Shown: positions 6,563 through 17,510 of the stretch, one piece after another | How the letters are laid out: the number at the start of each line of letters is the position of its first letter | How positions within the stretch are numbered: the stretch's first letter is position 1 | Origin: Fibrobacter succinogenes | Lineage (GTDB): Bacteria; Fibrobacterota; Fibrobacteria; Fibrobacterales; Fibrobacteraceae | Reading direction: 5' to 3' | DNA: 39,400 nucleotides | Assembly (NCBI GenBank): GCA_902767785.1 | Contig: CACXIR010000033.1 | Coordinates: 1-39,400, forward strand | Notes under the pieces: model-generated | What the model was told of the DNA's origin: nothing | The model's database searches: none | Seen by the model: the letters and a program-made list of their open reading frames with translations, nothing else | Position numbers and translations under genes: made by a program

Positions 6563-8068
6563 CTATCCCTTTATTGTCGGGGCTTGTCTTGCCACAGGAG
6601 CAAGCTCTCCGTGCTTGCGGAACAGGTGTTTTACCAAAGTCTTGAATCCGCGGAACACGCGGTAGCGTTCACGGGGATTCTTGATGGCCATGATTCCCTG
6701 GTGGAAAATGTAGCTGGGCCGCAAGTAGAATTCCCGGCGGGCCTTGTCGCAAAAGTCCACCAGCATCTGGCTGGTCAGTTCGCCTCGTTGGATGGTGGTG
6801 CGGTGGAATCCGTCTTTGTCCAGCCACTGTCCGTAATCCCTGGACTTTAGCGCGCCGCTCTCCAAAGCCTCCTTGTATGCCTCGGTACCGGGGTAAGCCA
6901 TGATGGGGTAGAACTGCGCCGTATTGGGGTTCAACTTCTTGGCGTAGTCAAGGGTCTGGCGCAGGGTCTCTGGAGTGTCGCCGGGGTTGCCAACCATAAA
7001 GCAGCCGTGGACCAGCAGGCCCGCCTTGCGGGCGTTCTTGGTGAATTCGATTGCCTTGTCGGTGTTCTTGACACCCTTGTGGATGCGTTCCAGGACCTCG
7101 GGACTTGCGCTTTCAAAGCCCACGCACATTTCGCGGCCGCCCGCCTTTTTCATGAGCTTGAGCAGGTCCAGCGGAACGTCGGCACGGGCGTTGCAGCTCC
7201 AGGTAATCTTGAGGCCCCGTTCCAGAATCAGATTGCAGATTTCACGCACGTGTTCGTGACTTGCAGTAAAGGTGTCATCTTCAAAGAACACTTCGCCCAG
7301 GTCCTCGAAGTTTTCCTTGATGTACTGCAGTTCGTCCACCACGTCTTTAGGCGTGCGGCGGCGGAACTTGTGGCCGTTCAGGGTTTGCGGAATCACGCAG
7401 TAGCTGCAACGGTTGGGGCACCCGCGTCCGCTTAGAATCACAATCAGCGGGTTCAGGTTGGCTCCGTAGAAATACTTTTTGTAGCAGGTGTACAGGTACT
7501 TGCGGTAGACCTTGGACACCCAGGGGATTTCGTCCAGATTCTCGATTTTTGGGCCTTCGGGCTGGAAGTCTACGGTGCCGTCGGCCTTGCGGAAGGCGAG
7601 GCCCGAAATGCTTGCAATATCCTTGATGTCTCCCCGCAGGAATCGCACCAGGTTCCTTGAGGTGTAGTCTGCCTCGCCGATAATTACGAAGTCTAGAGAA
7701 GGTTCCATCTCCATGGATTCCAGAGGTTCCGCCGTGGCGTGGGTCCCCATGATGGCCACCTTCGTGTCTGGCAAGGCCTCCTTGATGGAGTGGACGACCT
7801 TGAGGTCGTTCAGGATGCTGGGGGTGCTGGTGCTGCAAATGACAAGCTGAGGATTGAAAGCCTTCAGTCCGTTCAGGGTCTGGGGAAGGTCTAGATCCAT
7901 GGCGGGGCTGTCGATGAGCTGGATTTCGTTGTCGTCCGCCTCTACAGTGCCTGCGGCATAGCTTAAAAACATGGGCCAATAAAGGGTGCTGGACTTGGTG
8001 ACGCACGGACTACGGGATTCCCGGCTGAACATGGGAAAAAAGGGCGGATTTAAAAAACTGACGCGCAT
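6563..8068 (-). CDS. B12-binding-type radical SAM protein
   Basis: Residues about 1-150 resemble a cobalamin-binding Rossmann domain (NPPFFP near the start, ICSTSTPSI, IMGTHATAEP, VIIGEAD). The radical SAM core follows, with CPNRCSYC at about 217-224 binding the [4Fe-4S] cluster through Cys217, Cys221 and Cys224, then EVFFEDDTFT, WSCNARAD, CVGFESASPEVL and FMVGNPGDT. The organisation is that of the BchE/HpnJ-like class. HpnJ-like enzymes act on hopanoids and others on porphyrins or antibiotics; the substrate here is unknown. ATG 8068 (MRVSFLNPPF) is preferred over TTG 8080 because family members begin just before the NPP motif. It is divergent from the next gene across 51 bases. Confidence 0.85.
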   Translation of the reverse strand: MRVSFLNPPFFPMFSRESRSPCVTKSSTLYWPMFLSYAAGTVEADDNEIQLIDSPAMDLDLPQTLNGLKAFNPQLVICSTSTPSILNDLKVVHSIKEALPDTKVAIMGTHATAEPLESMEMEPSLDFVIIGEADYTSRNLVRFLRGDIKDIASISGLAFRKADGTVDFQPEGPKIENLDEIPWVSKVYRKYLYTCYKKYFYGANLNPLIVILSGRGCPNRCSYCVIPQTLNGHKFRRRTPKDVVDELQYIKENFEDLGEVFFEDDTFTASHEHVREICNLILERGLKITWSCNARADVPLDLLKLMKKAGGREMCVGFESASPEVLERIHKGVKNTDKAIEFTKNARKAGLLVHGCFMVGNPGDTPETLRQTLDYAKKLNPNTAQFYPIMAYPGTEAYKEALESGALKSRDYGQWLDKDGFHRTTIQRGELTSQMLVDFCDKARREFYLRPSYIFHQGIMAIKNPRERYRVFRGFKTLVKHLFRKHGELAPVARQAPTIKG

Positions 8069-8105
8069 AAGCCCCCACAAAATACATAATCATGGCTGAT
8101 AAAGC

Positions 8106-8113
8106 TACATTTG
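8106..8113 (+). promoter_or_regulatory. Promoter -7 box, TACATTTG
   Basis: Exact TANATTTG, six bases before ATG 8120, with no Shine-Dalgarno between. It supports ATG 8120 over the TTG at 8111, which lies inside the box. Confidence 0.55.
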
Positions 8114-8119
8114 AATTTA

Positions 8120-8719
8120 ATGAAAGGGCTTTTTTTTGCAAGTCTGTGCCTGTTGATGGTGGCGAACTCCGCCTTGTCCAAGGAAATACCCTTGGATACC
8201 GTCCGTACTTTGTTTTCGGATAGCTCCGTTGCGCGAATCTATACGGTTCAAAAGGGGACGGACACCAAGGAAGGGTGGTCCATGTCGTATCATCCCGATG
8301 GAAAATTGGCCGTGAAGGCTTTCTACAAGGATGGCCTTTTGGATGGAACTTTTTCCAGTTATTACGGAAACGGAAAACCCTGGCAAGAAATCGCTTACGA
8401 GGCCGGCGTGGAAAATGGTCTATCCATGAGTTATTATGAAAATGGTCTGAAAAAATCCAGGGAAGATTACAGGCGGGGCGTCCTGGAAGGGGTTTCTGAA
8501 GAATGGGATGAAAGGGGTACGTTGCGTAGGCGGATCCCCTATTTCCATGGGCAGATCCATGGCGTGGCTAAGCTTTATGACGATTTGGGCGCCCTCAAGG
8601 AAGAAATGACCTTTGAAAGGGGTGTCCGCCATGGCAGCTACCGCCGTTACGAAAAGGGCGTCAAGGTGCTGGAAGCGGAATTCCAGATGAATCGTTGTGT
8701 CAGGAATTGCGATTTCTAG
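8120..8719 (+). CDS. Secreted MORN/YwqK-like repeat protein
   Basis: A signal peptide (MKGLFFASLCLLMVANSALS) precedes repeats of about 22 residues in the MORN_2/YwqK style: SMSYHPDGKLAVKAFYKDG, SSYYGNGKPWQEIAYEAG, SMSYYENGLKKSREDYRRG, then three weaker copies to about residue 185. The family is often labelled an antitoxin component, but the label comes from one pair and no toxin lies next to this gene. It is probably a periplasmic or surface beta-repeat protein. Two Cys near the C-terminus (CVRNC) could form a disulphide. Function unknown. Confidence 0.82.
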   Translation: MKGLFFASLCLLMVANSALSKEIPLDTVRTLFSDSSVARIYTVQKGTDTKEGWSMSYHPDGKLAVKAFYKDGLLDGTFSSYYGNGKPWQEIAYEAGVENGLSMSYYENGLKKSREDYRRGVLEGVSEEWDERGTLRRRIPYFHGQIHGVAKLYDDLGALKEEMTFERGVRHGSYRRYEKGVKVLEAEFQMNRCVRNCDF

Positions 8720-9466: not shown

Positions 9467-10201
9467 TTAGTTCGTTTTATTCTTTGCGGGTTTTACCGCA
9501 TTCCACACCATGTAACCGATGAACAAGGCGCCGAAGGCTAGCAACGCGATGGCCAGCTCGGAGTTGTATTTTTCGATGATGTCTTTTTGCCCGTGGGCGA
9601 GATAGCCGAGCAGGGCTAGTACGCAGTTCCAGATGGTGGCACCCAGGAAGGTGTAGAGGGTAAAGGGCAGGAGCTTCATGTTGGATAGGCCTGCCGGTAT
9701 GGAAATGAGCTGGCGGATAACGGTGATGAGCCTGCCTACAAAGGTAGATATGGCGCCATGATCGCGGAAGTAGTTTTCTGCCCGCTCCACCTTAGTGCCG
9801 TCCAACAGCAGAAAGTGTCCTAGGCGGCTGTCTGCAAATTTGTACACAATGGGGCGGCCCAAGAACTTGGCAAGGAAATAGTTGATGAAAGCTCCCACCA
9901 GGGCGCCCAGGCTCGCGAATACCACGATGAGGACAATGCTCAGTTCTGAACCGGGCTGCAGAGCCTTGTAGGCTGCTGGCGGAACCACCAGTTCCGAAGG
10001 GAAGGGAATAAAGGAGCTTTCCACTGCCATGAGCAGGGCGATGGTTCCGTAGTTCAGGTTGTCGTTGTACCAGTCAATGATTTGTGTGTAAACGCCGCGG
10101 TCGCCGCCTTCAGTCGTTGAAGGGACTTCTGCTGCCGGTTGGGCCAGGGAAAAGGTGCAAAAGAAAGAAAGTAATAGAAGGAGGTGCTTAAGGGTCTTCA
10201 T
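9467..10201 (-). CDS. DedA-family membrane protein
   Basis: DedA/SNARE-associated proteins are inner-membrane proteins linked to undecaprenyl-phosphate or phospholipid translocation. A cleavable signal-like N-terminus and a short periplasmic stretch come first, which is unusual for DedA. Then come the family motifs: ESSFIPFPSELV in the re-entrant loop, GALVGAFINYFLAKFLGRP, FRDHGAISTFVGRLITVIRQ, and SIPAGLSNMKLLPF with the conserved Arg and Gly. About five hydrophobic segments are visible. It is the last gene of the minus-strand envelope operon, 11 bases after the barrel protein, and may supply or flip lipid carrier for it, which is inference. Confidence 0.88.
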   Translation of the reverse strand: MKTLKHLLLLLSFFCTFSLAQPAAEVPSTTEGGDRGVYTQIIDWYNDNLNYGTIALLMAVESSFIPFPSELVVPPAAYKALQPGSELSIVLIVVFASLGALVGAFINYFLAKFLGRPIVYKFADSRLGHFLLLDGTKVERAENYFRDHGAISTFVGRLITVIRQLISIPAGLSNMKLLPFTLYTFLGATIWNCVLALLGYLAHGQKDIIEKYNSELAIALLAFGALFIGYMVWNAVKPAKNKTN

Positions 10202-10212
10202 GGCCTACGCTA

Positions 10213-11787
10213 TTACTTCTTCTTTTTGCCCTTGGATTTCTTGGGAGCCTTCTTGTTCTGCTTGGGTGCAGGAGCTTCTTCCTCGGTAGTGCCGGTCTGG
10301 ACCTCGATCATGGAGGGTGCAGAGGCATCGGCGTTCTGGAGTGCGGCCTTGGCCTCTTCCACAAACTTTCCTTCGGGGAAGCGCTTCAGGTAGATCTCGT
10401 AGTCTTTCAGTCGACCACTGCCCTTTACCAGTTCAAAGATTCCTGCTTCTGCTTCGTCGCGGAAGGCACCATTGGGATTGTCGTTCAAGTAGGTGAGGTA
10501 GGCCTTGAAGGTGTTCTGGGCCTGAATCTCCCTAAACTTGTGGTACTCGCTCAAAACTTTCAGCTTGGCTTCCACTTCGGCACGGTGGGGAGAATCCGGA
10601 TAGTATTCCAGGTACATTTCCAGCATTTCGGGATCGTTGCTGGCCATGACTTGATCGAAACGAGAGTCTTCCTGCTTGGTCTGGTATTCTTTCAACTGAA
10701 CCTTGCCCGTATCCAGGGTGGCGTACAGCTTTTCCTTGGTAGCCAGGTCCGCCGGGTGGCAGAAGGCCAGGAAGCTTTCCAGCACGTCGGAGAACTGAGT
10801 CTTGGTGAAGGATTCGCTCATGTCGGGCAGGTTGCCGTCTTCGTCCAAGAAGAACCGGTAGTCGCGCTCGATGGCCATGCAGTCCCAATCTGTGAGGGTG
10901 TCCTTGACTTCGCTGTTCTTGCGGAGCACGTCGTCGCGGTCGTGGAGCACGTAACGCATGCGGCGGTCCCTGCGGCTTTCGCGACCGAAGTCCAGAGAAA
11001 GCTCGATGCCAACCCGCACAGGCAGCTTGTAAGAAATTTTGTCGAATTCGATTCCGGAGAATCCGGGAGGCAAGCCGCCTCCAAGTTTTGAAACATCCGG
11101 GGCTTTGTTTGTCGCCTTGACATCCTTGTAGGCAAGGAAGTCCCTACGGACGTTTACGCCGATCTTGAAGTCGATGTCCTGGAAGAGTTCGCCAATCCTG
11201 TATTCCAGGGCTCCGGACACAAATGCTGTGGGGGTGATGGAGGTGGTCTGGTTGGTATTTCCCAAGATGTCGTCGTAGAAACTGAAGAAGTGGAAGCCGT
11301 AACCGCCCAGGATCCTCATGTCCAAATCGCCAATAAGGTTGAAGGAAAATCCGCCCACCACGGATGGGGCGTAAGAGAGGAAGGACAGGGTTTCGTCGCG
11401 TCCGGCATCGCCGCAAACGCCCTCTTCGCCCTTAGGACCGCAACTATTCCCCTTGAAATAATAGTTAGGTTCTTTCGCAATCTCGCCGAATTGGATGGAG
11501 TTGACCTCAAGGCCTAGCCAGAGGGTAAAGGGAATGTCTGCCTTGTAAAAGGGAGTGACCAGGGGGCTGATGAGGAACCCTGCATTGATGGGGAAGGTCA
11601 TCAGTTTTTTGTCAATCTTTTGGGTTTCCCTATTTTGGTTGACCAAAAGCTCGGGGTCGCTGTCCTGGAATCTGAGGAAGGCGACTTCACCCTGCACATA
11701 GAGCTGCATCCTCCAGTTGGAGCGCTCAAAGTCGGCAGCCATGGCGGCCACCGCAAAAATCAAGGAGAGGAGTAAAACTTTACGCAT
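10213..11787 (-). CDS. Predicted beta-barrel protein with C-terminal helical repeats
   Basis: Not recognised as a named family. A signal peptide (MRKVLLLSLIFAVAAMAA) is followed by about 260 residues of alternating amphipathic strands with aromatic ends (FTLWLGLEVNSIQFG, MRILGGYGFHFFSFYDD, VRVGIELSLDFG), as in an outer-membrane barrel. From about residue 320 it turns helical with TPR-like units (MLEMYLEYYPDSPHRAEVE, FKAYLTYLNDNPNGAFRDE, YEIYLKRFPEGKFVEEAK). The last 20 residues are Lys-rich. A barrel joined to a soluble repeat domain suggests an outer-membrane anchor that recruits partners. ATG 11787 lies seven bases after a TAAATTTG box with no Shine-Dalgarno. Confidence 0.75.
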   Translation of the reverse strand: MRKVLLLSLIFAVAAMAADFERSNWRMQLYVQGEVAFLRFQDSDPELLVNQNRETQKIDKKLMTFPINAGFLISPLVTPFYKADIPFTLWLGLEVNSIQFGEIAKEPNYYFKGNSCGPKGEEGVCGDAGRDETLSFLSYAPSVVGGFSFNLIGDLDMRILGGYGFHFFSFYDDILGNTNQTTSITPTAFVSGALEYRIGELFQDIDFKIGVNVRRDFLAYKDVKATNKAPDVSKLGGGLPPGFSGIEFDKISYKLPVRVGIELSLDFGRESRRDRRMRYVLHDRDDVLRKNSEVKDTLTDWDCMAIERDYRFFLDEDGNLPDMSESFTKTQFSDVLESFLAFCHPADLATKEKLYATLDTGKVQLKEYQTKQEDSRFDQVMASNDPEMLEMYLEYYPDSPHRAEVEAKLKVLSEYHKFREIQAQNTFKAYLTYLNDNPNGAFRDEAEAGIFELVKGSGRLKDYEIYLKRFPEGKFVEEAKAALQNADASAPSMIEVQTGTTEEEAPAPKQNKKAPKKSKGKKKK

Positions 11788-11794
11788 TTGGATG

Positions 11795-11802
11795 CAAATT
11801 TA
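11795..11802 (-). promoter_or_regulatory. Promoter -7 box, TAAATTTG
   Basis: Exact TANATTTG, seven bases before ATG 11787, within the 38-base gap inside the minus-strand operon. It suggests an internal, possibly leaderless promoter for the barrel and DedA genes. Confidence 0.5.
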
Positions 11803-11825
11803 GTTTTTTTTGATTTGCGGGCGTG

Positions 11826-13376
11826 TTAGAAGGATATGAAAAAGCCAATTCCGAGCATAAGTACGCCGGCCCCTATCAAGGAAAGCCCGATGGCGTTCTC
11901 GCGGTCCCCTTGCTTGACCCGGTCCTTGTTTTTCTTGACCTTGTGGCGGTAGGAGTCTCCGCCAGCAGTGGCCACCTGCTTCAGGTCGTCCCGGATTTCT
12001 TCGGCTTCGTCATAGTCCAGTTGTGCCAGGTAGGTAAAAATGGCCCCGACCACAATAGGAGCAATGGATGCTCCCATGAGCGTGTGGCCCACGAACCGTT
12101 TTTTCTGGTCCTTGGCCCACTGTTGCTGTTCCTTCATCTCGTCGAACCGTGTCTCGGACTGGAGATGGATGTTTACCGTGGTGTCGGATACGGGCGGGAC
12201 GAACACGGTGACCAAGGTGTCTCTGAAACCGAATTTCCTGAGCTTGAATTTTACAACTCCCGGCTCAGAGATGGGGAACCGGTCAGGGGTGGTTCCCAGG
12301 GAGGAACTTTTGGGAGTGATGGGCTTGGTTCCGGGGAAAATCTGGGCGCCGTCCGGGTGGGAAATGATTCGGAGTTCAGGGCTTACGGGTTTCAGTTTCA
12401 AATACCTCTTGATGGTATCTCCCATCACTGGGTGCAAGGATACTTGAGTTCCCCAAAGTCGTTTGTCTACGTTCCAGTAGGCATACAGCTCCAGGGAGGC
12501 TGTGTCTGTCACGGGGAAGGTGCAGGGAGACCTGCAGAGGGCGTTTTCGTCGGCTAAAGAAAGGGTGGCACCTTCGGGGTCAGTCTCAATGTAGACGTAG
12601 CCTTTCTTTTCTTTGAGGTCTGAGGCGTCTAGTCCGCTGGCCTCCATGAGGAATATGCGGAAATTGTCTTTGGAAAGGGCTTCGCTAAGGGCCTTCCCCC
12701 TGGAGAGGGTTATCTTGTTCTTGTAGATGGTTGGGAGGTCTTCTTCGTCTTCGTACAAGATGCTGGTGAGTTCGACGGTGATGGAGTCCTTCTTTTCCAC
12801 GGGGGTGATGGTACCCAGGTAGACCTTCTTCGCCCCCAGCTTTCCCAGGTATTCCTGGAGGCATATGTTGTCGTCACAGTCGGGAATGTTGTTGCGGCGT
12901 ATGGCATGGACCTTCTGGCCACTTTCCAGCAGGAACCTTAGGGTAAGGGCGTCTATCTGGAGGGCTAAGGTGGAGTCCGCAATGGAGCTTTCGTAACCTA
13001 CGTATACGGTGGTTTCCAGGAGGGAATCCAGGCGGACGGGTTCTGGCCGGGCAGCCTGTTCCTGCACGTTGTTCGAATTGGCCAGGGAGTCTGCCGGATT
13101 AACGCCGGCGGTGTCGACGGCAGCCTCTGCGGGGTGCAGGTAGTCGGCACCTGCGGAATCGGTAATGCTCTTGAACTTTTCCCTAGGGAGCTTGACCACA
13201 AAAAACTTGTTGTTGATGTATCCACCCAGCTGGACCGTGTCCTGCTCAATGCCCAGGAACTGGGCCCGCTGCTTTGTTCCCGATACAAGCTCCACGTTTA
13301 CCATGGGTCCGCTCTTTTCTTGGGCGAACAGGCTTAGGAACATGCAAAGGATGAATATGGGTGTTAAGGACTTCAT
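11826..13376 (-). CDS. PEGA-domain envelope protein with C-terminal membrane hairpin
   Basis: A signal peptide (MKSLTPIFILCMFLSLFA) comes first, then a small beta domain (NVELVSGTKQRAQFLGIEQD) and a mixed domain of about 130 residues with CDDNIC, reminiscent of TolB- or CsgG-type N-terminal folds. Two PEGA-like domains follow: GYVYIETDPEGATLSL near residue 265, and LRIISHPDGAQIFPG near 345 ending KFGFRDTLVTV. The C-terminus has two hydrophobic helices flanking a charged coil (VGHTLMGASIAPIVVGAIFTY and LIGAGVLMLGIGFFISF). PEGA domains are surface or periplasmic beta domains of unknown ligand. The C-terminal hairpin resembles that of the next upstream gene, so the two are partial paralogues. 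Confidence 0.78.
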   Translation of the reverse strand: MKSLTPIFILCMFLSLFAQEKSGPMVNVELVSGTKQRAQFLGIEQDTVQLGGYINNKFFVVKLPREKFKSITDSAGADYLHPAEAAVDTAGVNPADSLANSNNVQEQAARPEPVRLDSLLETTVYVGYESSIADSTLALQIDALTLRFLLESGQKVHAIRRNNIPDCDDNICLQEYLGKLGAKKVYLGTITPVEKKDSITVELTSILYEDEEDLPTIYKNKITLSRGKALSEALSKDNFRIFLMEASGLDASDLKEKKGYVYIETDPEGATLSLADENALCRSPCTFPVTDTASLELYAYWNVDKRLWGTQVSLHPVMGDTIKRYLKLKPVSPELRIISHPDGAQIFPGTKPITPKSSSLGTTPDRFPISEPGVVKFKLRKFGFRDTLVTVFVPPVSDTTVNIHLQSETRFDEMKEQQQWAKDQKKRFVGHTLMGASIAPIVVGAIFTYLAQLDYDEAEEIRDDLKQVATAGGDSYRHKVKKNKDRVKQGDRENAIGLSLIGAGVLMLGIGFFISF

Positions 13377-13383
13377 GGATTAC

Positions 13384-14025
13384 CTAGAAAGATAAAAAGA
13401 CTCCGATGGAAAGGATTACTCCGCCTGCCACAAGGGATGTTATGGATACTTTCTTGGCGGTTTTGGCGTTGTCCCTGTATTCCTTAAAGTCCTTCTGGTT
13501 CTGTTTGTAATTTTTTCCGTTGGTAAAGACCGAATTGTCTAGAACTTTTTTGCAGTCTTCTGCCTTGTGGATTTCATAGGCCGTAACCCCTGCCGCAATC
13601 CCGCTTGCCAGGAGCGGGACTACAGCGGTTTTTATCAGGCGCGTTCCCAGGGATTTGCGGCTTCGGCGGTTCAGCTGGTCTTGCTGCTCTTTCAGCAGGG
13701 TTTCGCTAAAGGCGGGTTGCAAGGCTACAATTAGGTAAGATGTGTCCCTGTCCGAAAGAGTCACCTTCAAGGTGGTGTCCTTGAATTCAGGTTTGAACAA
13801 CGTTATCCGTACCACGGAATCGTTGGGTGCTACAGAAATAAAGGCGGGCAGTCGGTAGTCGGGGGCCTTCGAAAAGTCGGGGAATTTGGAGCTGACGTAT
13901 GCATCGGCCCCGGAAGGATTGGTGGAAACGTGAAGGTAGCGGTTCCGTTGCGGAGTGTCTTCGGCAAAGGAGTTGCTGGCAAACAGCATTAGGAGGAGGC
14001 TCAGTAGCATCAGAGGTTTTACCAT
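13384..14025 (-). CDS. Short PEGA-like envelope protein with C-terminal membrane hairpin
   Basis: ATG 14025 has a strong AAGGAGG just upstream and gives a signal peptide (MVKPLMLLSLLLMLFASNSFA). An in-frame start further upstream at 14091 lies inside the preceding gene and is rejected. Residues about 28-105 form a PEGA-like beta domain (YLHVSTNPSGADAYVS, then ITLFKPEFKDTTLKVTL). Two hydrophobic segments follow: VVPLLASGIAAGVTAYEI and VAGGVILSIGVFLSF, separated by a Lys-rich helix with one Cys. This is a trimmed version of the neighbouring 516-residue protein. It overlaps the upstream lipoprotein gene by seven bases, so the two are probably translationally coupled. Confidence 0.8.
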   Translation of the reverse strand: MVKPLMLLSLLLMLFASNSFAEDTPQRNRYLHVSTNPSGADAYVSSKFPDFSKAPDYRLPAFISVAPNDSVVRITLFKPEFKDTTLKVTLSDRDTSYLIVALQPAFSETLLKEQQDQLNRRSRKSLGTRLIKTAVVPLLASGIAAGVTAYEIHKAEDCKKVLDNSVFTNGKNYKQNQKDFKEYRDNAKTAKKVSITSLVAGGVILSIGVFLSF

Positions 14026-15431
14026 GAGTCCTCCTTTGGAACGAAGGGCCCGGAAATCCGCAGGGAGTCTTTTCCCGGTTCGAGCTTCCAATACATTTCT
14101 GTGTTACGGTTCTTGGCGTTGTCGGGAATGGGGATCTTCAGCTTGCACGTCCTGTGGCATGGATTTTCAAAGGAGATAATGGAAGATTCATACACGGCGC
14201 CAACGGTGTCGTAGTCGGCCACGACAATTTTTTTCTGTGCCTGGCTTATTCCAGAACCATTGTCCATGAAATAGAATTTGACGCTATCTGTTGGGGCGAA
14301 GGCTGTTTTTACGGGAGCCGCCTTGGGGGGAACCTTGTCTACAAAGACAATGCTGTCTGCCAGGCGAACCTTTGTCCTTGCAGGAACGTCTATAGTGACG
14401 GGATTAGCCTCGTAATCGGTCTGTTTGGTTTCGAAGGCGTAGATACGGAGTCCGCTTTGGGGTTTTACCTTGATGTTTAATGGCTTTCCCGGTGTGTCGT
14501 AGGTAAGCGATTTTAAGGTGTCGCCAAGGGCACTCAATAGGACAATCTTGGTGGAAATGGAAGTTCCCGTCACGAGGCTTGTATAGACGGGTTTGATTTG
14601 AATAATGGAGGAGTCTCCTCCAAGGAAGAGCGTGTTGAATGCGGATACGTCCGTATCGACTTCCTGGAAACCATTGCTGGTGTAGGCGGTGGCTTTTACG
14701 CCCCAGTAGATTGTAAGGGAGGAATCACGGAGGTTGATTCCGTAATTTTGGAGCCATAGCTCGGAAATGAGGGGTCCCTTGAGCCGTATGCCGCTCTTGC
14801 AGTCGTTGGCATCCAGGAAACTGACAGAATCCAAGATGTCTATCCACCGGGTGCTTGGGGCTATGGGAATGTCGTCGGATACGGCAGCGTAAACGACGCA
14901 TTCGGATTTTTCCCAGGGGTCAATTCCTGAAACATCCCAGTTGAGTTCTATGTAATCGCTGGAAAGGGGTTCAACGCTGGATTGCAGGGGTGGCGTCACT
15001 AGGGATATTTTTAATGGAGTTCCCACAAAGATATGGACGGTGTCCTTCAGGGTGTCCCCGGCAAAATCGACGGTTTTCAACACGCAGGTGTGGTAACCAA
15101 CGGAATCAAATTGGTACTCGGCGGAGTATGTGCCTATGGTGTCGCCTTCTATTTCCCAATAGTGGCTGTTGTACAGGTTGATGGCGCTGTCCTGGGACAC
15201 GGTTGTTCCGTTCAGCGAGTATCCGGCGGTAAAGAGGACGGTTTCTCCTTGATTGATGTAGAGGGTGTCGACCTGTTCGGTATGGCGGATGTAGTTTTCC
15301 GTCCAGGTGGTTGTGAGGATCCCTTGCTGCAAGAATTGTAAATCCTTGGGAGATATCAAGGCTTCTTCCCTGCAACTTGTCAAAAGCAGGAGCAAACAAA
15401 GGAGTGTGGTATGGGAAAAGAATCTAGCCAT
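14019..15431 (-). CDS. PKD/Ig-like surface lipoprotein (second of a tandem pair)
   Basis: A lipoprotein signal (LLLLLTSC, lipidated Cys at about 19) begins a 470-residue beta-rich protein. A PKD-like domain runs near 65-135 (HYWEIEGDTIG, VGYHTCVLKTVDFAGDTLKD). A fibronectin-like stretch follows (YIELNWDVSGIDPWEKSE), then strands resembling Ig folds to the C-terminus. The upstream gene is also 470 residues and shares the PKD core pattern Gly-Tyr-His...Cys...Asp-x-x-Gly-Asp-Thr-Leu-x-Asp-Thr, so the two are diverged tandem copies. The function is not known; cell-surface binding or scaffold roles are inference. It overlaps the upstream gene by eight bases. Confidence 0.8.
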   Translation of the reverse strand: MARFFSHTTLLCLLLLLTSCREEALISPKDLQFLQQGILTTTWTENYIRHTEQVDTLYINQGETVLFTAGYSLNGTTVSQDSAINLYNSHYWEIEGDTIGTYSAEYQFDSVGYHTCVLKTVDFAGDTLKDTVHIFVGTPLKISLVTPPLQSSVEPLSSDYIELNWDVSGIDPWEKSECVVYAAVSDDIPIAPSTRWIDILDSVSFLDANDCKSGIRLKGPLISELWLQNYGINLRDSSLTIYWGVKATAYTSNGFQEVDTDVSAFNTLFLGGDSSIIQIKPVYTSLVTGTSISTKIVLLSALGDTLKSLTYDTPGKPLNIKVKPQSGLRIYAFETKQTDYEANPVTIDVPARTKVRLADSIVFVDKVPPKAAPVKTAFAPTDSVKFYFMDNGSGISQAQKKIVVADYDTVGAVYESSIISFENPCHRTCKLKIPIPDNAKNRNTEMYWKLEPGKDSLRISGPFVPKEDSW

Positions 15432-16836
15432 CTGTACCCTCCCCGCTGCTAGAGGATGCGTCTTCTTTCGGTTTGGGCATTTCCATGGAGGGCCTTATCG
15501 CGTAGGTCCTGGAATTCTGATTGTCGCTGTTGTCGTAGGCGTTGATGGTCAACAACTGGTAGGTCCAACTTTTATAAGTGGCGGGCAGGGTGATTTTCAA
15601 AGTGTCCCCAGTCCGGGATTCGTTGAAGAAGGGGTGCCAGTAGTCGTTGTTCAATTTTTGCCCGTTGAAATAGATGTGGTAGTAGGGGTTTTGGCCCTTG
15701 TCCATGACGTAGAACCTGAGGGTGTCCCTAAAATCCAGGGTGTCCAAGTCTGACAGGGTCCCCTCTGGGGAAAGGTAGTTGTTGGTAGGGGGAATGGTGT
15801 CCCGTGGAATCAAAGTGTCTGCAATGGAGACCTCGCCGGGCCGGACAATGACGTCCGTAGTGTCAGGAACAAAATCCTCCAAATCATCAAAGTTGGCAAC
15901 GAGTTTGTACTTGCCGGGCTTTAAGGGGCTGACAATGACGAATGCGGTGTCGGCAGAAAAAACCTTCTGGGCGACGGGACTGGAATTAGAATCCAGGACG
16001 TTCAGGTTCATGTGGTAAGAACTGGAACAATACCTTTGGCTAGCTGCAGAGACGAACGCTTGTATGCCGCCCTCGTTGCCGTGTCCGCCGGTAAAGAAGT
16101 CCCCCTGGATTAGGGTGTCGGATTCCAGGCCGAATTCGTTGATGGCGTAAACTTCCCACGCATAGTACTTCAGGTTACCCATGCGGTGGTAAAAGTTCGG
16201 ATTGTCCCAATAGGTAAAAAAGGGCTCGGTTAGGATGGTGTCCATGATTTCGTCTGAGTAGAGGGACCATCCGCGGAGGTCCTGGCCTTGCCTTCGAGGT
16301 TCCCTGATGACCAAATGGAATTTGACCTTCGCGAGAGAGTCGGGGTCGTAGCCGTTCCAGGCAAAGGAAATTCCCTCTTGGGGCGAAAGTCCCTGGGTTC
16401 TCCGAGCTGGGATAAAATGTTCCGTGTCTATTATGGGGCGGTTGACAACCCAAAGCCGCAGGGTGTCTCGCAGGGTATCTCCAAAGTTGTCCAGGACCAC
16501 GAAACAGACCTCGTGGTAGCCTGGCTTTGTGACGGGCTTGCGGAAGTTCATGTCGTTTGAAAAGTCCTTGCCGTCCAAGGTCCAGTAGTATTCCCGATAG
16601 CGAGCCTGCCGGCTGGGGCTGATTTCCCCGATAAAGACCAAGGTGTCCAGGGCGGTTATGGTGTCTTCCCGCACTCTAAGTGAATCAATCTCGTAGGCTA
16701 GGGCCATTTCGGCGTGTACTTGGAGAACGATGCCGTCTTCTTCGTCATAGAGGAGGTTATCGCTGTCGCTACAGGCGTAAAGCCCAAAGAGGGGCAGGGC
16801 GAGCGCTGCAAGGATTGTGTACAGGAGGCGTCTCAT
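15424..16836 (-). CDS. PKD/Ig-like surface lipoprotein (first of a tandem pair)
   Basis: Lipobox LYAC at about residues 19-22, then an acidic start (SDSDNLLYDEEDG) typical of exported lipoproteins here. A PKD-like domain spans about 60-130 (YYWTLDGKDFSND, PGYHEVCFVVLDNFGDTL). A fibronectin-like region follows (ISFAWNGYDPDSLAKVKFHL), then a carboxypeptidase-regulatory-like strand set (PLKPGKYKLVANFDD), another Ig-like region, and a disordered Ser/Glu tail (EDASSSSGEGTDG). The order of domains parallels the next gene. It overlaps the gene before it by four bases (ATGA) and the one after by eight. Function unknown. Confidence 0.8.
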   Translation of the reverse strand: MRRLLYTILAALALPLFGLYACSDSDNLLYDEEDGIVLQVHAEMALAYEIDSLRVREDTITALDTLVFIGEISPSRQARYREYYWTLDGKDFSNDMNFRKPVTKPGYHEVCFVVLDNFGDTLRDTLRLWVVNRPIIDTEHFIPARRTQGLSPQEGISFAWNGYDPDSLAKVKFHLVIREPRRQGQDLRGWSLYSDEIMDTILTEPFFTYWDNPNFYHRMGNLKYYAWEVYAINEFGLESDTLIQGDFFTGGHGNEGGIQAFVSAASQRYCSSSYHMNLNVLDSNSSPVAQKVFSADTAFVIVSPLKPGKYKLVANFDDLEDFVPDTTDVIVRPGEVSIADTLIPRDTIPPTNNYLSPEGTLSDLDTLDFRDTLRFYVMDKGQNPYYHIYFNGQKLNNDYWHPFFNESRTGDTLKITLPATYKSWTYQLLTINAYDNSDNQNSRTYAIRPSMEMPKPKEDASSSSGEGTDG

Positions 16837-17510
16837 TTGGCTGCCTCCAGGGTATCAACCACATAGAATTTGACAAAGGGAAGGGAATCCATGTCCCCTT
16901 CGGAGTCCACTACGATGACCCGGAAAAGGTGTATTCCCGGTGCAAGCCCCGACTGCTGTATTTTTTCCAAGGAACCTACGGGATAGACGGTGGTGTCGAT
17001 CTCCAGGGTGTAGTTTAGAACGTCGTCCTCGATGTCTACGGCATTCCAGCTAAAGGTAAAGGGAGTGTTCTTTGTCCCGTACAAGTCCGGGTAGAATCCG
17101 GGAGCACTATTGACGGTAATCTTGAATTCGACGGAAATGGAGTTCCCCTCCCGATCTTTCACCACAAGCTTGTTGGGTATTTCACTGTCTTCTGGGTCAG
17201 ATGGAATCCTATAGGAGGACTTTTCCCCGAGGAGGGCGTTCCGGTACCAACTGAACTTGAGTTCGGGTTCCAGGCTTTTCGGAAATACTTCGGCCTTTAG
17301 CGTTGCCGGGTTTTCGGGGTGGATTTTTAGCAGCGTAGAATCGCTCTTGTCTTTTTGGGTGATGTATACTGAAATGCGAAAATCTGCAATTTCGGGATTT
17401 GGCGAATCGGGAATGTCCAGACAGGCGGCAAGGAGGGCTAGCGCCGTCAACCCCACAAGGAGACGGACCTGTGAAAAAAACGGAAACCTATGCCAGTGGC
17501 CAAGATACAT
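16833..17510 (-). CDS. Ig/PKD-like lipoprotein, first gene of envelope operon
   Basis: The lipobox is LLAAC, followed by LDIPDSPNPE. The mature part has two beta domains: about 40-120 (AEVFPKSLEPELKFSWYRN, KLVVKDREGNSISVEFKI) and about 130-215 (FTFSWNAVDIEDDVLNYTL, GIHLFRVIVVDSEGDMDSL), both resembling PKD/cadherin-like folds. ATG 17510 is chosen because TACATTTG ends six bases upstream; the in-frame TTG at 17519 overlaps that box. It heads a seven-gene operon running to the DedA gene. It may act with the two larger lipoproteins that follow, all of which carry the same kind of domain. Confidence 0.78.
   Translation of the reverse strand: MYLGHWHRFPFFSQVRLLVGLTALALLAACLDIPDSPNPEIADFRISVYITQKDKSDSTLLKIHPENPATLKAEVFPKSLEPELKFSWYRNALLGEKSSYRIPSDPEDSEIPNKLVVKDREGNSISVEFKITVNSAPGFYPDLYGTKNTPFTFSWNAVDIEDDVLNYTLEIDTTVYPVGSLEKIQQSGLAPGIHLFRVIVVDSEGDMDSLPFVKFYVVDTLEAAK

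Follow-up and report, generated by a model that had tools for sequence, protein, structure and literature searches.

We identified in Fibrobacter and its sister genera a conserved core of five envelope genes encoding three lipoproteins (L1, L2, and L3) and two PEGA-hairpin proteins (P1 and P2), i.e., proteins with a signal peptide, PEGA or PEGA-like domains, and a C-terminal helical hairpin. The core consists of these five genes, in the order L1-L2-L3-P1-P2, and is not one seven-part unit together with the beta-barrel and DedA genes that follow it in the DNA analyzed here. A new result of this analysis is that the barrel co-occurs across genomes with P2', a paralog of P2 encoded at another locus. 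The core is an undescribed envelope system of the main fiber-degrading genus of the rumen, about whose surface biology little is understood.

The window, i.e., the whole stretch of 39,400 nucleotides under analysis, is contig C33 of a 2.5 Mb draft genome (G000) whose close relatives are Fibrobacter. All seven genes lie on its minus strand. L1 (16833..17519, likely ATG start at 17510) is a lipoprotein of about 225 residues, Ig/FN3-like, with the lipobox ..LLAAC, and is followed by L2 (15424..16836) and L3 (14019..15431), two paralogous lipoproteins of 470 residues with tandem Ig/PKD-like domains. P1 (13384..14025, read from an ATG, with a TTG at 14091) has a signal peptide, one PEGA-like domain, and the hairpin, ending in ..GVFLSF. 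P2 (11826..13376) has a signal peptide, an Sm-like domain (residues 25-73), a CsgG/LpoB/TolB_N-like domain (123-246), two PEGA domains (259-331 and 334-404), and a hairpin (411-515), ending in ..GFFISF. The optional barrel gene (10213..11787) encodes an OmpA-like beta-barrel (25-267), a putatively periplasmic helical-repeat domain (272-485), and a Lys-rich tail, and the last gene (9467..10201) encodes a DedA/UptA-like protein with a VTT domain. The open reading frames overlap by 4 (L1/L2), 8 (L2/L3), and 7 bases (L3/P1), and the remaining gaps are of 7 (P1/P2), 38 (P2/barrel), and 11 bases (barrel/DedA), which confirms the seven genes, overlaps, and gaps given in a preliminary description of this DNA. 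The protein types named there (lipoproteins, signal-peptide PEGA proteins, barrel, and DedA) were recovered as well, by inspection of the lipoboxes of L1-L3 and of the signal peptides of P1, P2, and the barrel, and by Pfam, hhalign, and Foldseek. Pfam matches above cut-off were restricted to PEGA in P2 and VTT in DedA; L1, L2, L3, P1, and the barrel of the window gave nothing above the Pfam cut-off. The PEGA assignment thus stands for P2 (PF08308, 22.4 bits for a cut-off of 20.8; found in all 15 P2 orthologs searched), but for P1, which lacks a Pfam PEGA match, it comes only from profile comparison with P2.

The order L1-L2-L3-P1-P2 was found in 20/20 of the first loci of the genus and in 72 full-set loci of the genus, an identical recurrence that places the gene set far beyond chance. 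The same order occurs in the genera g16, g18, g19, g20, g22, g23, and g24, and in g21 it is kept as far as the end of the contig. In two early-branching genera, g15 and g17, the locus is minimal, with a pair of short lipoproteins, a single short P2, and neither P1 nor barrel. Spacing in the relatives is nearly always tight from L1 to P2, looser for the barrel (57-90 bases), and of 15-169 bases for DedA. Neighborhood conservation, which the preliminary description had put forward as a check, therefore applies to the core in Fibrobacter and most sister genera but not to the whole set, as the barrel is patchy and DedA lies elsewhere in g19. That description also suggested that the gene set could be peculiar to the phylum and knew of no named system that it matches. 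Consistent with this, profile searches with P2 and L3 outside the family returned essentially no full-length relatives, so that the set is essentially confined to Fibrobacteraceae, and we found no named counterpart. Weaker relatives of P2 occur in families f2, f5, f10, and f12. In f5, f10, and f12, a co-directional gene for a PKD or Ig lipoprotein comes next downstream, at 58, 215, and 15 bases, respectively. The recurrence of this pairing suggests that the two kinds of proteins are paired beyond this operon and, with three loci only, is the best evidence that PEGA-hairpin proteins and lipoproteins may act together. In other families, P2-like genes are followed immediately by genes for large lipoproteins with PKD repeats and a C-terminal Fib_succ_major domain (L205:9168-12761 and L207:2029-4935).

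By profile comparison, L1, L2, and L3 are mutual paralogs (hhalign 1e-12 for L1 and L2, 2.6e-25 for L2 and L3). In the same type of comparison, P1 aligns with positions 346-528 of the P2 profile, i.e., the second PEGA domain and the hairpin (hhalign 2.5e-21), and is in this sense a repeat of the C-terminal half of P2. Hence, the five-gene core is built from two ancestral genes, each duplicated. A CarboxypepD_reg-like domain was found in 2 of 16 L2 orthologs and PKD_4 in 1 of 17 L3 orthologs, the SusE match of L1 in the profile search was weak and under the cut-off, and a sequence search of the PDB gave no meaningful relative of L2. In L1-L3, acidic residues follow the Cys, which is loosely like the export signal described for surface lipoproteins of Bacteroidota (PMC5080379), and an outer-membrane or surface location would be expected from such rules, taken from other phyla. 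The Sus-like systems of Bacteroidota also have several lipoproteins per operon (PMC5080379). Unlike them, the set studied here has no SusC/TonB-dependent barrel and no SusD (profile searches found no SusC/SusD pair among the seven window genes), and its SusE match is limited to the sub-threshold one of L1. The median pairwise identity is 32-37% for the lipoproteins, 42-44% for P1 and P2, 71% for the barrel, and 75% for DedA. This gradient looks as if the lipoproteins were the most exposed proteins, and fast evolution has other possible causes as well.

In the AlphaFold2 model of P2 (mean pLDDT 79), an Sm-like barrel precedes an alpha/beta domain and two PEGA domains, and the chain closes with a helical hairpin that reaches the last residue; how the domains are arranged is uncertain given the pTM of 0.41. 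In Foldseek, TolB and PelC come up for the alpha/beta domain and Hfq-like folds for the N-terminal region. Distant relatives of P2 match CsgG (PF03783, 2e-10) and LpoB (PF13036, 6e-6) above the Pfam cut-off and also hit TolB_N (PF04052), which gives sequence support for a fold of this type in P2; the P2 of the window has no Pfam match of its own for these three families, and a PDB sequence search gave no relative of it. Residues 123-246 of P2 have the fold of a superfamily that includes the curli exporter CsgG, the PBP activator LpoB, the N-terminal domain of TolB, and PelC. Unlike CsgG, P2 has a plain signal peptide without lipobox, and its model shows no CsgG transmembrane beta-hairpins; in contrast with the superfamily as a whole, the domain is fused to Sm-like, PEGA, and hairpin parts. 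Among the folded parts of P2, it also varies more than the Sm-like domain (majority fraction 0.51, against 0.78). P2 and its orthologs share the PEGA domain with the PEGA-domain cell-surface proteins (PF08308; PMC2447325).

The hairpins end in a very constant way. The last residue is Phe in all 73 distinct P1 and all 86 distinct P2-type sequences, with Gly at -6 in 72/73 and 84/86 of them, respectively, and a hydrophobic residue at -3. Terminal Phe is also found in 26/26 P2' and in the P2 relatives from other families. To our knowledge, the description of PEGA proteins includes neither a helical hairpin at the end of the chain, closed by an invariant Phe, nor a pairing of such proteins with lipoproteins. 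The hairpin segments have a hydrophobic character (Kyte-Doolittle about 1.6 and 1.9) and are helical in the model. The mean charge just before the first helix is +4.2 in P1 and +2.5 in P2, and since this positive stretch must be exported, a simple inner-membrane hairpin violates the positive-inside rule. The universal Phe thus raises the question of which membrane the hairpin enters and what reads its end. The C-terminal signature of P1, P2, and P2' resembles that of beta-barrel outer-membrane proteins. Given this and the charges, one might propose that the three represent a novel kind of outer-membrane protein, alpha-helical in nature. The hairpin would be guided into the outer membrane by a C-terminal signal like that of OMPs (Gly at -6, hydrophobic residue at -3, Phe), and its loop would face the surface beside the lipoproteins; we regard this as rather improbable. 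The terminal Phe is a lead, and shared descent alone could preserve such a residue. Phe is likewise the last residue in 46 of 48 relatives of the MORN_2 protein encoded near the operon (window 8111-8719), which ends in ..RNCDF and has no hairpin.

The barrel model is of moderate quality (pLDDT 67), with strands at residues 25-267 and helices at 272-483. Its best Foldseek matches are OmpA, Ail, OmpT, and OpcA, and 5 of 15 orthologs match OMP_b-brl (PF13505). It has in common with OmpA-type two-domain proteins (PF13505) a small N-terminal barrel and a C-terminal, presumably periplasmic domain. The latter consists of helical repeats rather than a peptidoglycan-binding domain (no OmpA/MotB match in Pfam among 15 barrel members) and is followed in most members by the Lys-rich tail. 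The repeats are better conserved than the strands (majority fraction 0.89-0.91 against 0.74). No relative of the barrel was found by sequence search of the PDB, and its relatives outside the family are weak matches to the repeat domain in f10 only. The preliminary description counted the barrel as a member of the set: it is indeed contiguous with the core in the window and most Fibrobacter, but one well-supported Fibrobacter clade lacks it, as do g15, g17, g20, g22, and g24, and it tracks the unlinked P2'. In g16, it is on a separate contig.

P2' is encoded in the genome of the window at C17:20463-21872 (L229). It keeps the Sm-like domain, PEGA, and the hairpin, and an acidic linker replaces the CsgG-type domain. 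The presence or absence of barrel and P2' agrees in 106 of 111 genomes. The five exceptions are three incomplete genomes without the operon (G112, G156, and G163), one that also lacks the gene next to P2' (G123), and one in which P2' is short and divergent and a contig break interrupts P2 (G161). A Fisher test that ignores kinship gives 1.7e-23. On the P2 tree, barrel and P2' each change five times, on the same branches, and 4/4 independent pairs are concordant (sign test, p = 0.125, the lowest value that four pairs allow). As controls, the methyltransferase gene beside P2' persists in g20, g22, and g24 and, like the MORN gene near the operon, in the Fibrobacter clade without barrel; hence neither gene follows the barrel/P2' pattern. 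The changes on the same branches suggest that barrel and P2' probably work together, and a functional link between them is likely from these sequence comparisons. They are thus a concrete, testable pair of proteins from separate loci. We also considered a charge pairing between the Lys-rich tail of the barrel and the acidic linker of P2', which is unsupported: the barrels of g18 have no tail and their P2' keep the linker.

The DedA gene is well assigned by its VTT domain (2e-19, 70.6 bits for a Pfam cut-off of 33.9). Its best NCBIfam match is UptA, with 102.7 bits, which misses the equivalog cut-off of 300. Membership of DedA in the system, as initially described, was rejected. The 12 family genomes tested have exactly one VTT protein each, and in the complete genome G159, of sister genus g19, L1-L2-L3-P1-P2-barrel lies near 492-499 kb, away from its usual flanks and without DedA, which is found near 1,657 kb, about 1.2 Mb apart. 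There its neighbors are, as in the window, the MORN and radical-SAM genes, which indicates that these are its stable partners. The family is known for undecaprenyl-phosphate flippases (PMC11474028, PMC12893004). The window gene has the VTT domain in common with these DedA/UptA flippases (PMC11474028), but is here a neighbor and not a component; by analogy, it probably acts separately as an undecaprenyl-phosphate flippase. The radical-SAM/B12 and MORN_2 genes (together at window 6563-8719) and DedA (9467-10201) form a stable neighborhood, found together in G159 though the operon is elsewhere. Between the MORN and DedA genes, the window has a gene for a Fib_succ_major protein (PF09603; 8790-9461) that is highly similar at this place in a few close relatives only.

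The reading that we favor, tentatively and at somewhat less than even chances, is a scaffold of lipoproteins in the outer membrane that PEGA-hairpin proteins hold from the periplasm, with the barrel and P2' as an optional module. L1, L2, and L3 would be outer-membrane lipoproteins whose fast-evolving Ig/PKD arms probably point outward, on display at the surface. P1 and P2 would be exported, with the PEGA domains and the Sm-like and CsgG/LpoB-type domains of P2 in the periplasm, and fixed to a membrane by the C-terminal hairpin; in contact with the lipoproteins, they would hold them in a scaffold. In genomes that have it, the OmpA-like barrel could be an extra outer-membrane anchor, with its conserved helical-repeat domain docking P2'. 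The preliminary description saw in the seven genes a single trans-envelope assembly: an assembly is plausible given the conserved envelope gene set, but one that excludes DedA and has the barrel as a part-time member. One obligate complex of all seven genes is highly improbable since, despite their contiguity in the window and most Fibrobacter, DedA has its own neighbors elsewhere in g19 and the barrel was lost in whole clades.

The match of P2 to TolB and PelC, and the above-cut-off matches of its distant relatives to LpoB and CsgG, are also what one would expect of an envelope-integrity or peptidoglycan-linked complex like Tol-Pal or LpoB, in which P2, through its TolB_N/LpoB-type domain, would contact an enzyme of the cell wall or a Pal-like protein, with the lipoproteins as ties between outer membrane and wall. 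The presence of the core in every genus of the family fits such a housekeeping role. Yet, the set has no beta-propeller, OmpA-C, LysM, or SPOR domain, and the domain on which this explanation depends is variable in P2 and missing from P2'; we regard this explanation as unlikely. The ubiquity of the core argues against a surface adhesion apparatus, where the Ig/PKD lipoproteins would bind plant fiber or host glycans and P1, P2, and the barrel would merely anchor them. Adhesion would account for the Ig/PKD domains, the fast evolution of the lipoproteins, and the occurrence of PKD and Fib_succ_major lipoproteins next to distant relatives of P2, but there are no matches to carbohydrate-binding or enzyme domains in the window set or in L2/L3 orthologs, and published expression data could not be linked to these genes. 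We thus find it an improbable explanation, and the earlier idea of cellulose adhesion is unsupported. The fold matches to PelC and CsgG could also indicate an export system, in which P2 would form a collar in the periplasm and the barrel would be the exit. PelB is a barrel preceded by TPRs, which the fusion of the barrel to helical repeats recalls, but the order is reversed here, the barrel is like small OmpA/Ail/OpcA-type barrels, and it is dispensable. The set has no ATPase, synthase, or obvious cargo, and profile searches found no polysaccharide-synthesis gene, Pel genes included, among the seven. We regard export as very unlikely.

Finally, published proteomics of F. succinogenes S85 report a 'PEGA protein', FSU_1783, of 20.24 kDa with a GRAVY of -0.45 (PMC4619616), and a 'LpoB, LptE' lipoprotein, FSU_1784, which is down on cellulose (PMC6851124). 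At first sight these resemble P1 and P2. The P1 orthologs, at 22-25 kDa and GRAVY of -0.25 to +0.07, depart from the values of FSU_1783, and the link is not relied on here. The genome of the window also encodes, at C63:8976-9389 (L001), a 179-residue exported double-PEGA protein without hairpin (19.3 kDa, GRAVY -0.29), which is a candidate counterpart of FSU_1783, inexact but a better fit than P1.
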